NCBI RefSeq assembly: GCF_900129495.1
Contig: NZ_FQVX01000005.1
Coordinates: 124,001 to 188,000 of the forward strand
Direction: 5' to 3'
Length of the DNA stretch: 64,000 bases
DNA from: Geodermatophilus nigrescens
GTDB taxonomy: Bacteria > Actinomycetota > Actinomycetes > Mycobacteriales > Geodermatophilaceae
The position numbers were made by a program, and so were the translations under genes. Below are positions 41,871-52,341 of this stretch, piece by piece. The stretch's first letter is position 1. Each line of letters opens with the position of its first letter. The notes under the pieces are model-generated. The model was not told the origin of the DNA. It saw nothing but the letters and a program-made list of their open reading frames with translations, and did not search any database.

Positions 41871-42361
41871 TGGGCGCCGCGCACGCCATGACCTACGACG
41901 GGACCGGCCAGCTGCCCCTCCCGCCGCCGCTGCCCGCGGCCACGGCGCAGCTGCTCGACCAGGCCACCCGGGCCCTGGCGGAGGCCTCCCGCGCCGCCGA
42001 CGCGCGGGACCGCTACGCCACCGCCCACCTCGCCGCGCTGCGCGCCGCCGCCGCGGTGCTCTCGGCCCGCACCCGGCCCGAGAGCGGCCGCCGCCGGCCG
42101 TGCAGCGCCTGGGTGCTGCTCGAGCAGGTCGCCCCCGAGCTGGGGGAGTGGGCCACCTTCTTCGCCGCCGGCGCGGCCAAGCGGGCCGCGGCCGAGGCCG
42201 GGCTGTCCCGCGCGGTCACCGAGCGCGAGGCCGACGACCTGGTCCGCGACTCCGGCGCCTTCCTCGCCGTGGTCGAGGAGGTGCTGGCCCGCACGCCGGA
42301 GCCGGCGCCCCGGCCGCGCCTGGTCGGCGGCACCGCCCACCGTCCCGCGCGCGGGCGGTGA
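41870..42361 (+). CDS. SAV_6107-type HEPN domain protein
   Basis: This 163-residue helical protein contains ARDRYATAHLAALRAAAAVL, in which R48 and H53 make an R-x4-H motif, the ribonuclease signature of many HEPN domains. A second part has WVLLEQVAPELGEWATFFA and VTEREADDLVRDSGAFLAVV. It matches the family commonly called SAV_6107 HEPN. It sits between DUF6504 and dnaE2 in one LexA-controlled operon with 1- and 4-base overlaps, so it is made with the mutagenic polymerase. Whether it cuts RNA or is a scaffold is unknown. Confidence 0.75.
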   Translation: MGAAHAMTYDGTGQLPLPPPLPAATAQLLDQATRALAEASRAADARDRYATAHLAALRAAAAVLSARTRPESGRRRPCSAWVLLEQVAPELGEWATFFAAGAAKRAAAEAGLSRAVTEREADDLVRDSGAFLAVVEEVLARTPEPAPRPRLVGGTAHRPARGR

Positions 42362-45300
42362 GCGGCGACCCCTTCGTCCACCTGCACGTCGCCTCCGGGT
42401 ACTCCCTGCGCCACGGGGCCAACCACCCCGCCGACCTCGTGGCCCGCGCCGCCGAGCACGGCATGGGTGCGCTGGCCCTGACCGACCGCGACGGCCTCTA
42501 CGGGGCGGTCAAGTTCGCGCAGGCCTGCCGGTCGGCCGGGGTGCGCCCGCTGTTCGGGGTCGACCTCGCGGTCGCCCCGGCGGTGGACACCACGGTGCCG
42601 CCGGCGCTGGCGCGCGTGCTGGGTGAGGACGACGAGCTGGCGGCCCGGCGCGCGGGTGGACGCGGTGCGGGTGGGCACGGTGCGGGTGAACACGGTGCGG
42701 GTGGGCGCGGTGCGGGTGGGGTGGCGCCGGTGCGGCGCAGCCCGGTGCGCGGCGGGGCGAGCGTCGACCCGCGGCTGCCGCGGGTCACCTTCCTCGCCCG
42801 CGACGGCGCGGGCTGGCGGTCGCTGTGCCGGCTGACGAGCGCCACGCACCTGCGCGGCACCCGCGGCGAGCCGGTCGCCTCGCTGGCGCTGGCCGCCGAG
42901 CACGCGCCCGGCCTGGTCGCGGTGCTCGGTCCCGACTCGCCGGTGGGCCGCGCGCTGGCCGCCGGCCGGGCCGACGTCGCCTCCGCACGCCTGGACGCCT
43001 GGCGGTCGGTGTTCGGCCCCGGGTCGCTGGTGGTCGAGCTGGTGCACCACCGCGGCCGCGGTGACCGGCTGCGCGCCCAGCGGCTGATGCGCTTCGCCGC
43101 CGAGGAGGGTGTGCCGGTGGTGCTGAGCAACGCCGTCCGCTACGTCGACGCCATCGACGCGCCCACCGCCGACGTCCTCGACGCCTCCCGGCGGCTGGTC
43201 GCCCTCGACACCCGGCACGTCGACCGGCGCACCGCCGAGGGGTACCTCAAGTCGGGCAAGGAGATGGCCGAGGTCGCCGAGGAGATCGCCGGCCCCGACC
43301 GCGACGCGGCGCTGCGGCTGCTCGAGCGCACCGCCCGGCTGGCCGAGCAGTGCGCCGTCGACGTCCGCGAGGACCTCGGCATCGGCACCGTGCGCTACCC
43401 CGAGCTCGACGTCGTCACGTCCCCGGCGGAGCGGGGGATGGGCCCCTCGCAGGTGCTGCGGGCCCGCTGCGAGGCGGGGCTGGGCCGGCGCGGGATGGCG
43501 CGCAGCGAGAAGGTGCTGGTGCGGCTGGAGGAGGAGCTCGCCGTCATCGACTCCCTCGGCTACCCCTCCTACTTCCTCACCGTCGCCGACGTGGTCGACC
43601 TCATCAAGGGCCTGCGGGTCCGGGCGGCGGCGCGGGGGTCGGGCGCGGGCAGCCTGGTCACCTACCTGCTCGGCATCTCCGACGTCGACCCGATCCGCTA
43701 CGGCCTGCTCATGGAGCGGTTCCTCTCCCCGCTGCGCCACCAGCTGCCCGACATCGACATCGACGTGGAGTCCGCCCGGCGGATGGAGGTCTACGACGCG
43801 GTCATCGCCCGCTTCGGCGCCCACCGGGTCAGCTGCATCTCGATGATGGACACCTACCGGGTGCGGCACGCGATCCGCGACGTCGGCGCCGCGCTCGGCC
43901 TGCCCCCGGGCGAGATCGACGCCGTCGCCAAGGCCTTCCCGCACATCCGGGCCGACCAGGTGCACGCGGCGCTGCGCGACCTGCCCGAGCTGCGGGCCAG
44001 CCGGCTGGGCTCCCAGCGCGGCGGCGGCACCGGCGACCTCGACCTGCTGTTCGACCTCGTCGCCCGGCTCGACGGCCTGCCCCGGCACATCGCGCTGCAC
44101 CCGTGCGGGGTGCTGCTGTCCGACGCCACGCTGCTCGACCGCACGCCGGTGGAGAGCAGCTACCTCGGCTATCCGATGAGCCAGTTCGACAAGGACGACG
44201 TCGAGGAGCTCGGGCTGCTCAAGCTCGACCTGCTGGGCATCCGGATGCAGTCGGCGATCGCGCACGCCATCGACGAGGTGGCCCGGGTCGACGGCGAGAC
44301 CGTCGACATCGACGCCGTCCCGCGCGACGACCCGACCACCTTCGAGCTGATCCGCTCGACCCGGACCCTCGGCATGTTCCAGATCGAGTCGCCGGGGCAG
44401 CGCGAGCTGGTCGGCAAGTTCGGGCCGGAGACGTTCGAGGACATCGTCATCGACATCTCGCTGTTCCGGCCCGGGCCGGTGAAGAGCGACATGGTGACGC
44501 CGTTCCTGCTCGCCCGGAACGGCTGGCGCGACCCGGTCTACCCGCACCCCGACCTCGCGCCGTACCTGCGGGAGACCGCCGGCGTCGTCGTCTTCCACGA
44601 GCAGGTGCTGCAGATCGTGGCGCAGATGACCGGCTGCGACCTCGCCCAGGCCGACGAGGCCCGCCGCGCGCTCGGCGACAAGGAGCTGCACGCGGAGGTG
44701 CGGGCCTGGTTCATGCCGGAGGCGCTGCAGCGCTACCCGGTCGAGGTGGTGGAGAAGGTGTGGGAGGTGCTGGTCGCCTTCGGCTCCTTCGGGTTCTGCA
44801 AGGCCCACGCGGCGGCGTTCGCGCTGCCCACCTACCAGTCGGCGTGGCTCAAGACCCACCACCCGGCGGCCTTCCTCGCCGGGGTGCTCACCCACGACCC
44901 GGGCATGTACCCGAAGCGGCTGATCCTCGACGACGCCCGCAACTTCGGCGTCCGGGTGCTCGGCCTCGACGTCAACGCCTCGGACGCCACCTACCGGGTG
45001 GAGCGGCTGGCCGAGGAGGACCGCCCGGAGGAGCCGCCGCGCCGGCCGGAGTGGATGCCCGCGGCGATGGCCGACCCGTCGGCCCACGGCATCCGGCTGT
45101 CCCTCGCCGACGTCAAGGGCATCTCCGACGACGAGGTGGCCCGGATCGTCGCCGGGCAGCCCTACCGCTCGCTGCCCGACTTCTGGAACCGGGCGTCGGT
45201 GTCGCGGCCGGTGGTGGAGCGGCTGGTGCTCGCCGGCGGGTTCGACTCGCTCTACGGGTTCGGCGTGCGCGACCGCGAGGCCGGCCGGCCCACCCGCTCC

Positions 45301-46188
45301 CGGCAGTCGGTGACCCGCCGCGACCTGCTGCTGCAGATCAGCGAGCTCGACCGGTGGAGCCGCAGCGGGAAGCGGGCCGGCTCGGTGGGGCAGCTCAGCC
45401 TCGACCTGCTCGGGCTCGACACCGGGGACGACGCCGAGGAGGGCATGGGGGAGGAGACGGACGGCGCCGGGTGGGCCGGGTCGGAGGCGGCCGGCTCCGG
45501 GCTGCCGGAGTTCACCGACGCCGAGCTGGTGCGCGCCGAGCTCGAGGTGCTGGGCCTGGACGCCAGCCGGCACGTCGTCGACTTCTACCGGCCGTTCCTG
45601 TCCGCGGTCGGCGCGGTGCCGGCCGGCGAGCTGCTCGGCTGCCGCAGCGGCGCGGAGGTGCTGGTAGCCGGGGTCAAGGTGGCCACCCAGACGCCGCCGA
45701 TCCGGTCGGGCCGGCGGGTAGTGTTCGTGACCCTCGACGACGGCACCGGCTGCACCGACTCGACCTTCTTCGAGGACGTGCAGGGCCCCTACGCGGCCAC
45801 GGTGTTCCACTCCTGGCTGCTGGTCATCCGCGGGGTGCTGCGCCGCACCGGCCCGCGCGGGGTGTCCATCCGGGCCACCGGCGCCTGGGAGCTGCCGGCG
45901 CTGTACGAGGCGTGGGAGACCGGCGGCCTGGCCGGGGTGTCGGAGCTGATGGCCGCGCCGGGGGAGTACACCGAACAGGCCATCGCCGGGGCGGCGGCCT
46001 CACACGGGTCGCGGCCGGTGGTGGTCAAGCCGGTGCTGGTGCACCCGACGGGCTTCCGGATGTCGCCCTACGCCGACATCAAGCCCGCCGGCGACGACGC
46101 CGGGACCGCGGTGCGCAAGGCCGCGGCGCAGCGGAGCGCGGCCCCGCGCAAGCTCTGGCACTCCAGCCCCGGCAGCTCCGGCCACTGA
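42358..46188 (+). CDS. dnaE2: Error-prone DNA polymerase DnaE2
   Basis: This 1276-residue C-family polymerase carries out damage-induced translesion synthesis. The N-terminal PHP domain (FVHLHVASGYSLRHGANHPADL-type start) leads to the palm with the catalytic Asp residues in LPDIDIDVESARR, GDKELHAEVRAWF for DnaE-type fingers, the HhH region (DVKGISDDEVARIV) and a C-terminal OB fold (VLVAGVKVATQTPP; VFVTLDDGTGCTD). A pentapeptide repeat at about residues 99-123 is inserted in the PHP domain. It is the last gene of the LexA operon and ends at a strong hairpin. Confidence 0.94.
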   Translation: MSGDPFVHLHVASGYSLRHGANHPADLVARAAEHGMGALALTDRDGLYGAVKFAQACRSAGVRPLFGVDLAVAPAVDTTVPPALARVLGEDDELAARRAGGRGAGGHGAGEHGAGGRGAGGVAPVRRSPVRGGASVDPRLPRVTFLARDGAGWRSLCRLTSATHLRGTRGEPVASLALAAEHAPGLVAVLGPDSPVGRALAAGRADVASARLDAWRSVFGPGSLVVELVHHRGRGDRLRAQRLMRFAAEEGVPVVLSNAVRYVDAIDAPTADVLDASRRLVALDTRHVDRRTAEGYLKSGKEMAEVAEEIAGPDRDAALRLLERTARLAEQCAVDVREDLGIGTVRYPELDVVTSPAERGMGPSQVLRARCEAGLGRRGMARSEKVLVRLEEELAVIDSLGYPSYFLTVADVVDLIKGLRVRAAARGSGAGSLVTYLLGISDVDPIRYGLLMERFLSPLRHQLPDIDIDVESARRMEVYDAVIARFGAHRVSCISMMDTYRVRHAIRDVGAALGLPPGEIDAVAKAFPHIRADQVHAALRDLPELRASRLGSQRGGGTGDLDLLFDLVARLDGLPRHIALHPCGVLLSDATLLDRTPVESSYLGYPMSQFDKDDVEELGLLKLDLLGIRMQSAIAHAIDEVARVDGETVDIDAVPRDDPTTFELIRSTRTLGMFQIESPGQRELVGKFGPETFEDIVIDISLFRPGPVKSDMVTPFLLARNGWRDPVYPHPDLAPYLRETAGVVVFHEQVLQIVAQMTGCDLAQADEARRALGDKELHAEVRAWFMPEALQRYPVEVVEKVWEVLVAFGSFGFCKAHAAAFALPTYQSAWLKTHHPAAFLAGVLTHDPGMYPKRLILDDARNFGVRVLGLDVNASDATYRVERLAEEDRPEEPPRRPEWMPAAMADPSAHGIRLSLADVKGISDDEVARIVAGQPYRSLPDFWNRASVSRPVVERLVLAGGFDSLYGFGVRDREAGRPTRSRQSVTRRDLLLQISELDRWSRSGKRAGSVGQLSLDLLGLDTGDDAEEGMGEETDGAGWAGSEAAGSGLPEFTDAELVRAELEVLGLDASRHVVDFYRPFLSAVGAVPAGELLGCRSGAEVLVAGVKVATQTPPIRSGRRVVFVTLDDGTGCTDSTFFEDVQGPYAATVFHSWLLVIRGVLRRTGPRGVSIRATGAWELPALYEAWETGGLAGVSELMAAPGEYTEQAIAGAAASHGSRPVVVKPVLVHPTGFRMSPYADIKPAGDDAGTAVRKAAAQRSAAPRKLWHSSPGSSGH
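42652..42720 (+). repeat. 15-bp tandem repeat inside dnaE2
   Basis: Four units of 15 bases (42652-42711; GCGGGTGGnCnCGGT type) and a partial fifth encode AGGRG, AGGHG, AGEHG, AGGRG and AGG. The copies differ by one to three bases. They extend a loop of the PHP domain without breaking the frame. Confidence 0.85.
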
Positions 46189-47092: not shown

Positions 47093-48258
47093 CCGTGCTC
47101 CCCGACGGGCTGGTCCGCCCCGCCTACGGCGACCGCACCCTCGCCGACGTGCTGCCCGGCGTCGCCACCGCCCTCGGGGTCGCCGTCGACCGCGCCGGCC
47201 TGCCGCCGGACCCGCTCGGCCTCACCGCCGCGCTCGGCGGGGCCCGCCGGGTCGCCGTCCTGCTCGTCGACGGCCTCGGCGCGCAGCTTCTGCGCGACCA
47301 CGCGCACCTCGCGCCCACCCTCGCGGCGCTCACCGGCCCGGCCGGCGACCTCGACGCGCCCTGCCCCAGCACCACCCCGGTCAGCCTCACCACCCTCGGC
47401 ACCGGCGTCCCCCCGGGCGGGCACGGCGTCCTCGGCTTCGTCACCGCCGTCCCCGGCGAGGACCGCCTGCTCAACCACGTCGCCTGGACCGACGACCCCG
47501 ACCCGCGCGACTGGCAGCCCCGCCCCACCGTCTTCGAGCAGGCCGCCGCGGCCGGGCTGCCGGTCACCGCGGTCGCGCCGTACGCCTACGACGGCTCGGG
47601 GCTGTCCACCGCCGCCTACCGCGGCGCCACCTACTCGGGCACCGTCAGCGCCGGCGACCTCTCCGCCGTGCTGCTGCAGTCCCTCGCGCTCGCGCCCACC
47701 GGTCTCGTCTACGGCTACACGCCCGAGCTCGACCTCACCGGCCACGTCCGCGGCGTCGACTCCGACAGCTGGCGCATGCAGCTCGCCCTCGTCGACCGGC
47801 TCGTCGAGCAGGTCGTCGACGGCCTCCCCGACGACGCCGCCCTGCTGGTCACCGCCGACCACGGCATGCTCGACGTCCCCGCGCACACCCGCGTCGACGT
47901 CGACGACGAGCCGGCCCTGCTCGACGGCGTCGCCCTGCTGGCCGGCGAGCCGCGGGCCCGCTACGTGCACGCGGTGCCCGGCGCCGCGGCCGACGTCCTC
48001 GACGCCTGGCGCGGCGTCCTCGGCGACCGCGCCTGGGTGGCCGGCCGCGACGAGGCGGTGGCCAGCGGCGTCTTCGGCGACGTCGACGCCGCCCTCGCCG
48101 GCCGGATCGGCGACGTCGTCGCGCTGGCCCGCGGGCCCTGGGCGATCACCGCGTCGGGCACCGAGCCCGGCCCCAGCCGGCTCGCGGCCTACCACGGGTC
48201 GCTCACCGCGGCCGAGGTGGCGATCCCGCTGCTGCTGGCCCGCGGGCGCGCGCTCTAG
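47089..48258 (+). CDS. Alkaline phosphatase superfamily nucleotide pyrophosphatase/phosphodiesterase
   Basis: This 389-residue enzyme has the metal-binding and nucleophile pattern of the superfamily: VAVLLVDGLGAQLL (Asp), CPSTTPVSLTTLGTGVPP (nucleophile Thr), TPELDLTGHVRGVDS (Asp/His) and LLVTADHGMLDV (Asp-His). It has no signal peptide, so it acts in the cytoplasm on a phosphodiester or phosphomonoester not identifiable from sequence. Its TAG overlaps the stop of the convergent ferredoxin-like gene. Confidence 0.83.
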   Translation: MTVLPDGLVRPAYGDRTLADVLPGVATALGVAVDRAGLPPDPLGLTAALGGARRVAVLLVDGLGAQLLRDHAHLAPTLAALTGPAGDLDAPCPSTTPVSLTTLGTGVPPGGHGVLGFVTAVPGEDRLLNHVAWTDDPDPRDWQPRPTVFEQAAAAGLPVTAVAPYAYDGSGLSTAAYRGATYSGTVSAGDLSAVLLQSLALAPTGLVYGYTPELDLTGHVRGVDSDSWRMQLALVDRLVEQVVDGLPDDAALLVTADHGMLDVPAHTRVDVDDEPALLDGVALLAGEPRARYVHAVPGAAADVLDAWRGVLGDRAWVAGRDEAVASGVFGDVDAALAGRIGDVVALARGPWAITASGTEPGPSRLAAYHGSLTAAEVAIPLLLARGRAL

Positions 48259-49226
48259 GAGAACGCCAGCGCCGTCCACTCCCGCGGGTGCGCGGCGTGC
48301 AGCGCCTTGCAGGTCAGCTGTGCGGCCTCCGCGGCCGGCCGGCTCTCCACCCGCACGGCGACCTCGCCGTCGGGGCCGCCGAGGACGACGTCGAACAGCT
48401 CCACCCCGTCGCCGTCCGGGTCGGGCAGCCGGCGGGTGCCGAGCGGCGGCAGGTCGTCGACGCCGAGCAGGCCGAGCCGCTCGCGGGCGAAGTGCTGCGC
48501 GGCCTGCACCGGCAGCGGCATCCCCGCCCGCCCGCGCAGGAACGGCAGCGCCACCTCGCCGCGGGCGTGCGCGCCCACCACGTCCGCGCCGTCGCCGGGC
48601 ACCTGGGCGTAGGCGAACCCGTGCGGCAGCACGAGCACGTTGGTGGCGAACCGGCAGCCGCCGAGGTGGCTGCACTCCCAGACGTCGAGGGCGTCGGGCA
48701 CCGGCATCGACCGCGCCAGCGGCCGGCCGCGCAGCGCGCAGCAGGCGTCGTGCTGGCCGTGCGTGCACACCAGGTACAGCGGCCGCTCGGCGCGCTCGCC
48801 GGCCGAGCCGTCCCACGGCGCCTCGAGCAGGTCGGCGTCGGCCTCCCGCTCGGACCACCACAGCCCCTCGTGGCCGGGGCGGCCGTCGGCGTAGGCCCAC
48901 CGGCGCCCGGGCCCCGCCGCGCGCTCGCCCGGCTGGCGGACCAGCAGCACCCGCACGCCCTCGGCGCGGGCGCGGCGGGCCAGCTGCGGGGCGACGGCGG
49001 CGTCGAACCGGGACGCGGTGAGCGCGTCGCGGCCCCACGGGCCCGGCTGCTCGACCAGCAACCAGCGCTGCGCCGGCCCGGCCGTGGCGACGGGGGAGTC
49101 GCCGCGGGCCAGGGCGGTCACCGAGCAGCGGGTCGGATCCAGCCGTCCGGTCCGGACCGCGGCGCTCACCCGGGGGAGCGCCGCGGGCTCACGACCCGGT
49201 CCCGAGGGCGTCGGCACGCTCCCCAT
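48255..49226 (-). CDS. Sucrase/ferredoxin-like (thioredoxin-fold Fe-S) protein
   Basis: This 323-residue protein of the sucraseferredoxin-like family has LVCTHGQHDACCALRGRPLA and WECSHLGGCRFATNVLVLPH, in which Cys and His residues can hold a [2Fe-2S] cluster, as in the thioredoxin-like ferredoxins. It is third in an operon with the JmjC oxygenase, so it could deliver electrons to it; this is inference. The ATG at 49226 lies inside the end of the oxygenase gene (38-base overlap); GTG at 49169 is an alternative that removes the overlap. Confidence 0.75.
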   Translation of the reverse strand: MGSVPTPSGPGREPAALPRVSAAVRTGRLDPTRCSVTALARGDSPVATAGPAQRWLLVEQPGPWGRDALTASRFDAAVAPQLARRARAEGVRVLLVRQPGERAAGPGRRWAYADGRPGHEGLWWSEREADADLLEAPWDGSAGERAERPLYLVCTHGQHDACCALRGRPLARSMPVPDALDVWECSHLGGCRFATNVLVLPHGFAYAQVPGDGADVVGAHARGEVALPFLRGRAGMPLPVQAAQHFARERLGLLGVDDLPPLGTRRLPDPDGDGVELFDVVLGGPDGEVAVRVESRPAAEAAQLTCKALHAAHPREWTALAFS

Positions 49227-50622
49227 CGTCCCCGCCGGCGTCGGGCGCGGGCGCACCCGGCCCGGCCGGCCCCGGCTCCGGCGCGGTGGCGGGCACGCCG
49301 TCGACGGCGTGATCGACGGCGCCGTCGGCGGGACCGGGGTGCGCGTCGGCGACGACCGCGACCGACTCGGTCACCAGCCGGCGGGCCAGCGTCAGCTGGT
49401 CGGCGGGCTCGAGGCCGGCCAGGTCGGCCACCTTGAGCTCGCCGCTGGCCAGCAGCGCCTCCAGCGCCGGGCGGGTGGCGGCGGGGAACTCGTGCGACCG
49501 GCGGCCGCCGAGCAGCGTGACCCGGTCGCCGCCGGCCGGGTCGGCGGAGGAGGGGCGCAGGGCGGTGCGCAGCCGGGGGCGCAGCCGCAGCACGCTGTCG
49601 GGCGACAGCGCGGCGGCCGCGGTGGCCTGCGCCAGCGGGGCGACCGGCTCGGGCCGGACCTGCGCCCAGGCGCGCCCGCGCACCCGGTCGGCGACCTGGT
49701 CGGCGTCGACCCGGCCCAGCCACTCCTGCAGCGCGCCGACCACGGTGGCGACGTCGTCGCGCAGCGCGCCGGGGTCGGCCAGGTCGACGCCCAGCGGCAG
49801 CGCGCGGCGCAGCTCGCGGTCGTCGGCGGCCAGCGTGCGCACCAGGTCGAGCACCGACTCCACCGCCGACCAGCGGGTGACCGAGTGCACGCCGATGGTC
49901 AGGTGGGCGCTGGTCTGCCCCAGCGCGACGGCCGAGTGCAGGTAGCCGCGGGGCAGGTAGAGCGCGTCGCCGGGGCGCAGCACGGCGTCGATCACCGGCT
50001 CGCGCCGCGCGGCGGCGGCCACCTCGGCGGCCCGGTCGTTCCACGGCTGGGTGCGCAGCGGCTCCTCGAGCACCGGCTCGTGGATCGTCCAGTGCTTCTC
50101 GCCGGCGACCTGCAGCACGAAGACGTCATGGACGTCGTAGTGCGGGCTGAACCCGCGCGAGGACGGCGGGGTGACGTAGGCGTTGACCTGCGTGGGGTGT
50201 CCCAGGTCGGCGGCCAGCTGGTCGGCGAATTCGATCAGCGGCGGCCAGAGCCGGTGCAGGCCCTGCAGGACCACGGTGCTGCCGTCGGCGAACAGGCGCA
50301 GCACGGCGTCGGAGGAGACCTGGTCGGTCACCTCGGCGCCGGCGCCGCCGGAGGTGGTGAACCGCTTCGCGTCGACGACGGCGCCGTCCTTGGCGATGCG
50401 GATGAAGGGGGTGCGCAGCCCGCGGCGGGAGAGCAGCTCGTCGACGTCGGCCAGCGTGAGCAGGTCGGCGAAGGACTCCCCGGTGTCCTCGGCGCGGGTC
50501 AGCAGCGGGCGACGGGACCAGTGCTGCTCGGCGAAGACGGCGGGGTCGAGGTGGGTGCACCGGCGCAGGGCCGGGCGGAGGTCAGCTCCGCCCGGCCCCG
50601 CGACGGCCGGGTCCTGGTTCAG
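49189..50622 (-). CDS. JmjC (cupin_4) 2-oxoglutarate oxygenase with a CTG start
   Basis: This 477-residue protein belongs to the ribosomal-oxygenase-like JmjC group. Fe ligands are H161 and D163 in SPHYDVHD and H229 in LYLPRGYLHSA; Lys176 in GEKHW may hold 2-oxoglutarate. An N-terminal part with the family motif EQHWSRRPLL (about residues 34-43) is encoded upstream of the first GTG (50331) in an unbroken frame that contains no ATG, GTG or TTG. The frame begins at CTG 50622, which overlaps the TGA of the repeat protein (CTGA), as ATGA/GTGA do elsewhere here. A 97-residue loss would follow from starting at 50331. Confidence 0.8.
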   Translation of the reverse strand: MNQDPAVAGPGGADLRPALRRCTHLDPAVFAEQHWSRRPLLTRAEDTGESFADLLTLADVDELLSRRGLRTPFIRIAKDGAVVDAKRFTTSGGAGAEVTDQVSSDAVLRLFADGSTVVLQGLHRLWPPLIEFADQLAADLGHPTQVNAYVTPPSSRGFSPHYDVHDVFVLQVAGEKHWTIHEPVLEEPLRTQPWNDRAAEVAAAARREPVIDAVLRPGDALYLPRGYLHSAVALGQTSAHLTIGVHSVTRWSAVESVLDLVRTLAADDRELRRALPLGVDLADPGALRDDVATVVGALQEWLGRVDADQVADRVRGRAWAQVRPEPVAPLAQATAAAALSPDSVLRLRPRLRTALRPSSADPAGGDRVTLLGGRRSHEFPAATRPALEALLASGELKVADLAGLEPADQLTLARRLVTESVAVVADAHPGPADGAVDHAVDGVPATAPEPGPAGPGAPAPDAGGDDGERADALGTGS

Positions 50623-50918
50623 GCCGAACCGTCCGCGCCGCCGTCGGCACCACCGTCGGCACCGCCGTCCGAGCCGCCGCCGGCCGCACCGCCGTCGGCC
50701 GGGCCGTGGCCGGCACCGCCGTCGGCGCCACCGTCCGCACCGCCGTCCGCACCGCCGTCGGAGCCGCCGCCCGCCGCGCCACCGTCGGCCGGGCCGTGGC
50801 CCGCGCCGCCGTCGGCGCCACCGTCGGCACCGCCGTCCTGGTGGCCGGGCGTGCCCTCGCCGGCGCCGCTGTCGGCCGGACCCTCCACGCTGGTCATGTC
50901 GTCGTCGTCGAGCGCCAT
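50619..50918 (-). CDS. Gly/Asp/Ala repeat protein, possible oxygenase substrate
   Basis: This 99-residue protein starts MALDDDDMTSVEGPADSGAG and continues into GGAD-type repeats. A longer unit (DGGADGGA, GAGHGPADGGAAGGGS) occurs twice, then three more GGAD units close the chain. There is no Cys, no signal peptide and no hydrophobic core, so it should be unfolded. GGAGGAA lies 6 bases before the ATG. It is translationally coupled to the JmjC oxygenase, and its repeated Asp, Asn-free GHGPAD blocks are candidates for hydroxylation. It might instead be a calcium-binding or stress-related disordered protein. Confidence 0.75.
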   Translation of the reverse strand: MALDDDDMTSVEGPADSGAGEGTPGHQDGGADGGADGGAGHGPADGGAAGGGSDGGADGGADGGADGGAGHGPADGGAAGGGSDGGADGGADGGADGSA

Positions 50919-51094
50919 CGAGTTCCTCCGGTCACTGTCGCAGCCGTCCGCCGGACGGCGGTCGGTCGTGTCCCACCTAACCCGATCGGCAGCGCGCCAC
51001 ACATGCCCCCACCAGCCGTTTCCCGACACGCACGGACACCTCCGCCGACGGCGCGCCGGGGACCGCGGCGGGCGGCTAGTCTCCTCCGGTCGGT

Positions 51095-51110
51095 CCGAAC
51101 ACGTGTTCGA
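51095..51110 (+). promoter_or_regulatory. LexA (SOS) box upstream of dinB
   Basis: CCGAAC-ACGT-GTTCGA differs from the TCGAAC-N4-GTTCGA consensus at the first base only. It begins 12 bases downstream of a TAGTCT -10 box (51077-51082) and ends 13 bases before the dinB ATG. Confidence 0.75.
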
Positions 51111-51123
51111 GAGGCGGGGCGGG

Positions 51124-52341
51124 ATGGCAGCGGGGCGTGCGGAGGGGTGCAGCGTGCTGCACGTCGACATGGACGCCTTCTTCGCCAGCGTCGAGGTGCG
51201 CCGGCACCCCGAGCTGGCCGGCACGCCGGTGATCGTCGGCGGCGCGGGCAACCGGGGGGTGGTCACCTCGGCCACCTACGAGGCGCGCGCGTACGGCGTG
51301 CACGCCGCGATGCCCACCGCCCGCGCGCTGCGGCTGTGCCCGACCGCCACCGTGCTGCCGGGGGACATGGCGCTCTACGCGGAGGTCTCCCGCTCGGTCA
51401 TGGCGCTGTTCCGGTCGGTCACGCCGCTGGTCGAGCCGCTGAGCCTGGACGAGGCGTTCCTCGACGTCTCCGGGGCCGGCCGCCGGCTCGGCGACGCGGC
51501 GGAGATCGGCGAGTACCTGCGCGCCCGGGTCTTCGACGAGCAGGGCATCACCTGCTCGGTCGGGGTGGCCGGGACGAAGTTCGTGGCCAAGCTCGCCTCC
51601 ACCCGGGCCAAGCCCGACGGCCTGCTCGTCGTCCGCCCGGCCGAGGTCATCGACTTCCTGCACCCGCTGCCGGTGGGCGCGCTGTGGGGGGTGGGCGCCA
51701 AGACCGAGGAGGTGCTCCTGCGGCTGGGGCTGCGCACCGTCGGCGACCTCGCGCACGTCCCGGCGCGCACCCTGCAGCGGGCGGTCGGCCCGGCGGCCGG
51801 CGGCTCGCTGCACGAGCTGGCCTGGGGCCGCGACCCCCGGCGCGTGGTCCCCGACGAGCCGGAGCGCTCGATCGGGCACGAGGAGACCTTCGGCACCGAC
51901 GTCGACGACCCCGCCGTCATCCACCGGGAGCTGCTGCGGCTGGCCGAGCGGACGGCGGGCCGGCTGCGGGCGGGGAGCTGGCTGGCGCGCACGGTGAGCA
52001 TCAAGGTCCGCTTCGCCGACTTCACCACGATCACCCGCAGCCGCACCCTCGACGTCCCCACCGACGTCGGGCAGGACCTCTACGACACCGCCCGCGCCCT
52101 CTTCGACGCCCTGGGCCTGGACCGGGCGCGGCTGCGGCTGGTGGGCGTGCGCGCCGAGCGGCTGGTGCAGGCCGGGTCGACGCCGCGCCAGCTCGAGCTC
52201 GGCGAGCGCGAGCACGGCCGCCGCGACGCCGAGCTGGCCGCCGACCGGGCCGCTCGGAGGTTCGGCGCGGGGGCCGTCCGGCCGGCCACGCTGCTGCACC
52301 GCGACCGCGACCGGCGGGTCCGCGACCGCCCGCGGGGGTGA
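51124..52341 (+). CDS. dinB: DNA polymerase IV (Y family)
   Basis: This 405-residue translesion polymerase has the Y-family active site in LHVDMDAFFASVEVRR (first Asp pair) and PLSLDEAFLDVSG (Asp-Glu), a helix-hairpin-helix region GVGAKTEEVLLRLGLRTVGD and a little-finger domain with SIGHEETFGTDV. It ends in a basic, disordered tail without an obvious clamp-binding motif. A LexA box lies directly upstream. It is the only Y-family gene in the window and could serve DnaE2, since no imuB is present in the dnaE2 operon. Confidence 0.92.
   Translation: MAAGRAEGCSVLHVDMDAFFASVEVRRHPELAGTPVIVGGAGNRGVVTSATYEARAYGVHAAMPTARALRLCPTATVLPGDMALYAEVSRSVMALFRSVTPLVEPLSLDEAFLDVSGAGRRLGDAAEIGEYLRARVFDEQGITCSVGVAGTKFVAKLASTRAKPDGLLVVRPAEVIDFLHPLPVGALWGVGAKTEEVLLRLGLRTVGDLAHVPARTLQRAVGPAAGGSLHELAWGRDPRRVVPDEPERSIGHEETFGTDVDDPAVIHRELLRLAERTAGRLRAGSWLARTVSIKVRFADFTTITRSRTLDVPTDVGQDLYDTARALFDALGLDRARLRLVGVRAERLVQAGSTPRQLELGEREHGRRDAELAADRAARRFGAGAVRPATLLHRDRDRRVRDRPRG

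Follow-up and report, generated by a model that had tools for sequence, protein, structure and literature searches.

The closest described relatives of the enzyme considered here, a 2-oxoglutarate (2OG)/Fe(II) oxygenase of the JmjC type encoded in a window of 64,000 nucleotides of Geodermatophilus nigrescens (contig NZ_FQVX01000005.1, positions 124,001 to 188,000; coordinates below are those of the window), are the human ribosomal histidyl hydroxylases NO66 (RIOX1) and MINA53 (RIOX2), with about 24% identity, and, more distant in sequence (E 5e-8), the bacterial uL16 arginyl hydroxylase YcfD. We know of no repeat partner for YcfD and, to our knowledge, the ribosomal oxygenases require no encoded partner. 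The G. nigrescens enzyme differs from NO66 and MINA53 in being paired with an encoded repeat peptide, the product of the gene just before its own, and in an invariant Gly that replaces the Ser contacting the substrate His; a gene for a Suc_Fer-like protein follows, and the three together are the subject of this analysis.

JmjC-type enzymes also act on encoded peptides, among them ribosomally synthesized and post-translationally modified peptides (RiPPs). The part of PMC12707348 available to us describes BipG, from the biphenomycin system, as an ornithine hydroxylase with a JmjC domain, and RiPP systems of this 2OG-oxygenase type, as described there, share with our locus a small precursor gene in an operon with a JmjC-type enzyme, which hydroxylates the precursor in those systems and is proposed to do so in ours. 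As far as that source goes, the present locus departs from them in having one recognizable modifying enzyme, a long, low-complexity, multi-site core and no recognized adjoining protease or exporter, and in the near-universality of its JmjC gene in one family (matches in 92 of 96 Geodermatophilaceae genomes, the family being assigned by record names). In the available part of another study (Bregman 2025, PMC12710340), fish and algal proteins are reported to combine PF08007 with a fused fold like the RiPP recognition element (RRE), bacterial homologues with about 30% identity are said to occur in RiPP-like contexts, and no actinobacterial repeat precursor is named. Thus, the principle of an encoded peptide with its own oxygenase is already known, while the pairing of a multi-site Gly/Asp core with an NO66-type enzyme and a Suc_Fer protein, nearly universal in one family, is undescribed as far as could be searched; the repeat words had no match in the literature searched, a body of 5.39 million papers.

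A conserved three-gene unit in actinobacteria

The genes stand in the order repeat protein, JmjC, Suc_Fer (Table 1), as a preliminary description of the window had proposed, with coordinates, reading frames and Pfam matches in agreement: the JmjC frame matches PF08007 (E 2.4e-28) and the third gene PF06999 (Suc_Fer, E 1.9e-15). The GGAD/GHGPAD repeat protein placed by that description directly before the oxygenase is an open reading frame (ORF) with its own GGAGG; at E 1, it has no counterpart among Pfam or NCBIfam families, and the other two proteins likewise have no NCBIfam match at that threshold. The repeat protein is single in its own genome, where the self-match has E 1e-42.

That the repeat protein and the oxygenase belong together is borne out by genome samples drawn without regard to the repeat, which was searched for separately from the JmjC with a profile built from alignment A1. 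Among 200 genomes of the host order, 125 have a JmjC match at E 0.001 (some being fragments or paralogues), and the 94 with a repeat match all lie within these 125, none being found in the other 75 (Fisher p 5e-30, for related genomes and events that are not independent). A repeat protein occurring mostly without the oxygenase, which the preliminary description held would count against its proposal, is therefore not what these genomes contain. The association follows the strength of the JmjC match. Of 95 matches of 300 bits or more, 91 have the repeat no farther than 600 nt away, the remaining four being at contig ends (G019, G160) or having a sub-threshold repeat visible by eye (G184, G240); at 200-300 bits it was found in one of 15, most of the others being from one family with a second type of repeat core, and below 200 bits, where matches are mostly paralogues or fragments, in one of 34. 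In a class-level sample of 246 genomes, the repeat profile matched 40, of which 37 have it beside a JmjC match (tables compared by eye), and 36 of the 37 genomes with a JmjC match of at least 300 bits have a repeat match; two genomes with JmjC matches of 200-300 bits (G288, G442) have none. The orphan repeat matches in G321, G343 and G419, which have no JmjC match, and a second match in G030 were set aside as low-complexity noise with no leader.

At the level of individual loci, an Asp-rich repeat ORF stands just before the JmjC gene in 194 of 199 distinct actinobacterial loci with at least 150 nt of upstream sequence. These loci are not a random sample: they comprise 90 of 94 places in the family, 40 hand-chosen loci from the order, the best 80 by JmjC similarity, the best 30 places by score from the class sample and 11 more. 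The misses are L116 and L287 (less than 240 nt upstream), L117 (a short ORF resembling the second core type by eye), L226 and L270. The search for the gene pair in other actinomycetes that had been suggested for this window thus found it across many families, its carriers including Geodermatophilus, Blastococcus, Modestobacter, Klenkia, Motilibacter, Actinokineospora, Kribbella, Paractinoplanes, Micromonospora, Pseudonocardia, Saccharopolyspora, Cellulomonas, Herbiconiux, Kineosporia and Marmoricola. Since the next-best match to the repeat protein in its own genome has only E 0.05 and the arrangement recurs in nearly all testable loci, its adjacency to the JmjC gene is not due to chance; like a RiPP precursor gene, it adjoins the candidate modifying enzyme and is conserved with it.

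The third gene belongs to the unit as well. Suc_Fer lies within about 1.5 kb downstream of JmjC in 88 of 90 family loci, where the two misses have sequence that ends at JmjC (L094) or 71 nt left (L064), and in 33 of 40 loci of other families. Its Cys164-x-His166-x2-His169-x2-Cys172-Cys173 motif and His197 are invariant in 85 aligned loci (at most 60% identity), so that both the profile and the conserved Cys/His residues place it in its family; no solved-structure relative was found by sequence at E <= 1. Presumably it is related to the Apd1/Aim32-type ferredoxin-like proteins (PF06999), which it resembles in its Pfam match and conserved Cys/His residues and from which it differs in its genomic link to the JmjC/precursor pair. 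Genes outside the three vary among the scanned families (protein kinase, aminotransferase, DUF72, TerC, FKBP, FtsK-like and others), and the three move as one unit.

Table 1. Features of the three-gene unit, in window coordinates.
Feature	Position	Strand	Remarks
Repeat protein, proposed precursor/substrate	50619..50918	-	99 aa, Gly/Asp/Ala; ATG 50918, TGA 50621-50619
Conserved N-terminal leader of repeat protein (MALDDDDMTSV)	50886..50918	-	Retained in most families, core variable
Shine-Dalgarno GGAGG of repeat gene	50925..50929	-	6 nt upstream of ATG
JmjC (PF08007) 2-oxoglutarate oxygenase, NO66-like	49189..50622	-	Likeliest start CTG 50622-50620, overlapping repeat-gene TGA
Conserved RNA hairpin	50566..50600	-	About 18 nt past repeat-gene stop, within 5' end of JmjC frame; covariation
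Suc_Fer-like (PF06999) protein	48255..49256	-	Start GTG 49256 or ATG 49226; overlaps JmjC 3' end

A 90-bp tandem repeat at 50629-50838 is the DNA of the repeat gene. Elsewhere in the window, a 15-bp tandem repeat (42652-42720) encodes GHGAG/GRGAG units, another Gly/His-rich low-complexity stretch, within a long plus-strand ORF (42100-46188) that by eye resembles an error-prone DnaE polymerase.

Leader, core and catalytic residues

The repeat protein of the window has an acidic start, MALDDDDMTSVEGPADSGAG, followed by GGAD runs with two GHGPADGG modules. Its leader, M-[A/S]-[L/I]-x-D-D-D-[I/M]-T-[T/S], is kept in most families and shorter or reduced in several members (e.g., L243, L271, L272), and precedes units like EGPADGGSNPEGHDGGADGTA, of which L130 has three perfect copies, or GGAD runs of variable number. 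Two types of core occur among the 194 repeat-bearing loci: EGPADGG..HDGGADGG (type A) in 184, and DADQGDS..VDPAGSDPAG (type B, more fully PGGDADQGDS..QVDPAGSDPAG) in ten loci of one family with a similar leader, LRDEDITT. A leader that stays constant while the core changes gives these proteins a likeness to precursor peptides, and an acidic leader kept across two core types is the organization of a RiPP precursor. Some members have peculiarities of their own: a non-repetitive insert, LIDKVRDKVRDVIGGDK, midway in the GGAD run of Geodermatophilus ruber (L200); an unusually long repeat protein of 222 aa with RGVERGADAGADVGAD units among ordinary EGPADGG modules in a genome of the order sample (L126, G153); and two JmjC copies (L289, L290), each with its own type-B repeat protein, in genome G227.

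Past residue 12, the cores consist of 39% Gly, 21% Ala and 17% Asp, with Lys, Cys and aromatic residues almost absent (154 distinct ORFs; approximate, some starts being misplaced). The preliminary description had suggested many equivalent Asp and three His residues as targets. Asp is constant across the repeat ORFs, the peptide having about 18, with few competing side chains. His is not constant: it is absent from about 34 of 188 repeat ORFs (an approximate count, some ORFs having been cut by the detection script), which rules it out as a general target, and from all ten type-B loci, although His-Asp-Gly-Gly motifs occur in the cores of many members. With the L130 protein as query, 160 relatives were found among 5.8 billion proteins; among the 120 matches listed, none has a Pfam domain, and those named are "hypothetical protein" save one "BatC protein" (Leifsonia poae), a name that had no match in the literature searched.

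In the oxygenase, His161, Lys176 and His229 are present in 250 of 250 aligned loci and Asp163 in 249. We take the His/Asp/His residues to be the Fe(II) triad (HxD...H) and Lys176 to bind 2OG, roles that match the aligned NO66 residues, and the catalytic residues are intact. The enzyme is nearer to NO66 and MINA53 than to YcfD, and is predicted to have their three-domain architecture of JmjC, dimerization and winged-helix domains, the C-terminal winged-helix region being present in the model. It lacks their Ser for the substrate His: Gly244, invariant in 250 of 250 loci, stands where NO66 and MINA53 have the Ser (421 and 257, respectively) that, in the available part of PMC9994133, hydrogen-bonds the substrate His.

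The junction between repeat gene and oxygenase gene

No ATG, GTG or TTG occurs in the JmjC frame from the repeat stop to codon 98 (GTG 50331, within the conserved core), and the start that fits the junction is a CTG sharing bases with the repeat stop as CTGA. The translational coupling claimed earlier is therefore subject to a reservation: the overlap of repeat stop and JmjC start involves no ordinary start codon and needs the CTG. The distance from the stop to the JmjC core varies widely, yet equals 2 modulo 3 in 86 of 90 Geodermatophilaceae loci, all but L072 and three from the genus Klenkia (L090-L092); this implies translation of the linker in the JmjC frame, even though a comparison of 48 loci shows no conservation of its amino acids. 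In 65 of the 90 loci, there is again no ATG, GTG or TTG between stop and core, while 15 have GTG as the third linker codon and L048 has GTGA replacing CTGA. The Klenkia loci have their own Shine-Dalgarno sequence and a GTG far downstream of the repeat stop, and two Mycobacteriaceae-type loci (L130, L131) have an in-frame stop just upstream of their ATG. A frameshift fusion of repeat protein and JmjC was considered, given a preserved frame with no ordinary start, but these independent starts, third-codon GTGs, the GTGA and the in-frame stops disfavor it, though less strongly for the majority junction type; the most economical explanation is that translation re-initiates at a weak, overlapping start and yields two separate proteins.

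Just after the repeat stop lies a hairpin with a stem of 15-16 bp. Across the 48 distinct family loci whose spacing is 59 nt, pairing holds in 96.9% of 768 alignment cells, covariation scores 0.165 versus 0.082 in shuffles, and cells changed on both sides number 27 versus 5.6. Of 90 family loci, 79 have a stem of at least 10 bp no more than 80 nt from the stop, as do 51 of 89 further loci (mostly of other families), whereas in base shuffles the longest stem averages about 6 bp; four Mycobacteriaceae-type loci (L113, L131, L274, L276) have short gaps and no long stem. No Rfam family matched at 48000-51300. In one locus of a Modestobacter-record genus (L072, genome G006), the hairpin stretch that the near relative L066 has is missing from the linker, which puts the JmjC frame out of register with the start, possibly through an assembly or deletion artifact at the hairpin.

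A proposed peptide-oxidation operon and its alternatives

We propose, with a probability of roughly two in three, that the unit is a RiPP-like peptide-oxidation operon in which the repeat protein is the dedicated substrate of the JmjC enzyme. The private-substrate reading is the best one because, in the sample of the order, the repeat was found only in genomes with a JmjC match and because Suc_Fer belongs to the unit; co-occurrence and the conserved unit fit what the preliminary description suggested, while the enzyme-substrate relation and the Fe-S donor role are still ones that we infer. The repeat protein would be a precursor composed of a short acidic leader and a multi-site, Asp-rich core, which the JmjC would bind, perhaps holding the leader in its C-terminal winged-helix domain, and oxidize at many equivalent core positions. 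The target residue is probably Asp, most likely at C-3 to give beta-hydroxyaspartate. Suc_Fer would most likely keep the active-site iron or the product reduced, and the hairpin and weak overlapping start (CTG in most family members) would limit the enzyme to small amounts compared with its substrate.

Several observations weigh against this proposal. Two of the 199 testable loci have no recognizable repeat ORF: L270, which is also the one class genome (G344) with a JmjC match of at least 300 bits and no repeat match, and L226. Suc_Fer was not found downstream in seven of the 40 loci of other families, including every one of the five Micromonospora-type (f16) loci. A scan of 20 flanking ORFs, selected by a composition rule and five of them unmatched in Pfam at E 1e-8, recognized neither a protease nor an exporter; RiPP systems usually include leader removal and export, for which no gene is thus evident here, though such genes may lie elsewhere. 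An Asp target is a departure for the fold, since human NO66 and MINA53 hydroxylate His, and a Gly/Asp protein of low complexity could act as a partner that stays unmodified; modification of the repeat peptide was observed in none of the sources seen. The unit itself is real and conserved; its chemistry is unproven. As a separate observation, L226 (Kribbella pratensis VKM Ac-2573) has no GGAD ORF and has long GNPGNL/REPGEPR-like tandem-repeat frames upstream of JmjC, which could represent a third core type or a loss.

The JmjC might instead be an ordinary ribosomal oxygenase acting on uL2, uL15 or uL16, with the repeat protein as its regulator (a competitive decoy or inhibitor) or as an assembly partner, and not as the substrate that yields a product. 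Its predicted fold, shared with the ribosomal oxygenases NO66, MINA53 and YcfD, and the His-Asp-Gly-Gly motifs of many cores are in keeping with this, but the described enzymes are not known to need an encoded partner, the Ser position that contacts the substrate His is uniformly Gly, and a decoy would need neither many tandem sites nor the exchange of a whole core for another Asp-rich motif. Competing unoxidized peptides have been raised as a form of regulation for MINA53 and NO66 (in the available part of PMC9994133), which lends the decoy role some substance; overall we hold this explanation to be unlikely.

A quite unlikely alternative is that the repeat protein stays unmodified and serves as a metal-binding or scaffold partner, for example offering Asp-held Fe(II) or Ca(II) to the oxygenase and the ferredoxin-like protein; the Asp and Gly content of the cores with their few hydrophobic residues (approximate, as above) and the invariant Cys/His of Suc_Fer suit such a role, for which the leader/core division, conserved repeat units and two core types are more than metal buffering needs. 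It is very improbable that the repeat ORF is a translated leader controlling JmjC expression through coupled re-initiation and the hairpin, its protein being irrelevant: the CTGA overlap and conserved hairpin agree with this, but the amino-acid motifs are kept where the junction differs (L090-L092; L113, L131, L274, L276). Chance proximity of a merely GC-rich tandem DNA, a thought prompted by the many short GC-rich tandem repeats in the window, can practically be discarded, being refuted by co-occurrence in many families and the single significant match in the whole genome.

The peptide-oxidation proposal has a clear chemical readout, stepwise +16 Da on an Asp-rich peptide, and, if true, would allow the NO66/MINA53 type of enzyme to be studied in a genetically simple bacterial setting, with a possible route to programmable poly-hydroxyaspartate. 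A more specific version, which we advance tentatively as one possibility, is that the NO66-type oxygenase, with Suc_Fer as redox partner, makes a poly-beta-hydroxyaspartyl peptide, a multi-dentate Fe/Ca ligand, and that such peptides form a widespread, undescribed actinobacterial class; in that case, the ribosomal His hydroxylases of animals would derive from enzymes reading dedicated precursors or have a common ancestor with them. If the broader proposal is true, the modified peptide made by this two- to three-gene unit, which nearly all sampled Geodermatophilaceae and members of many other families possess, is one that the literature, as far as could be searched, does not describe.
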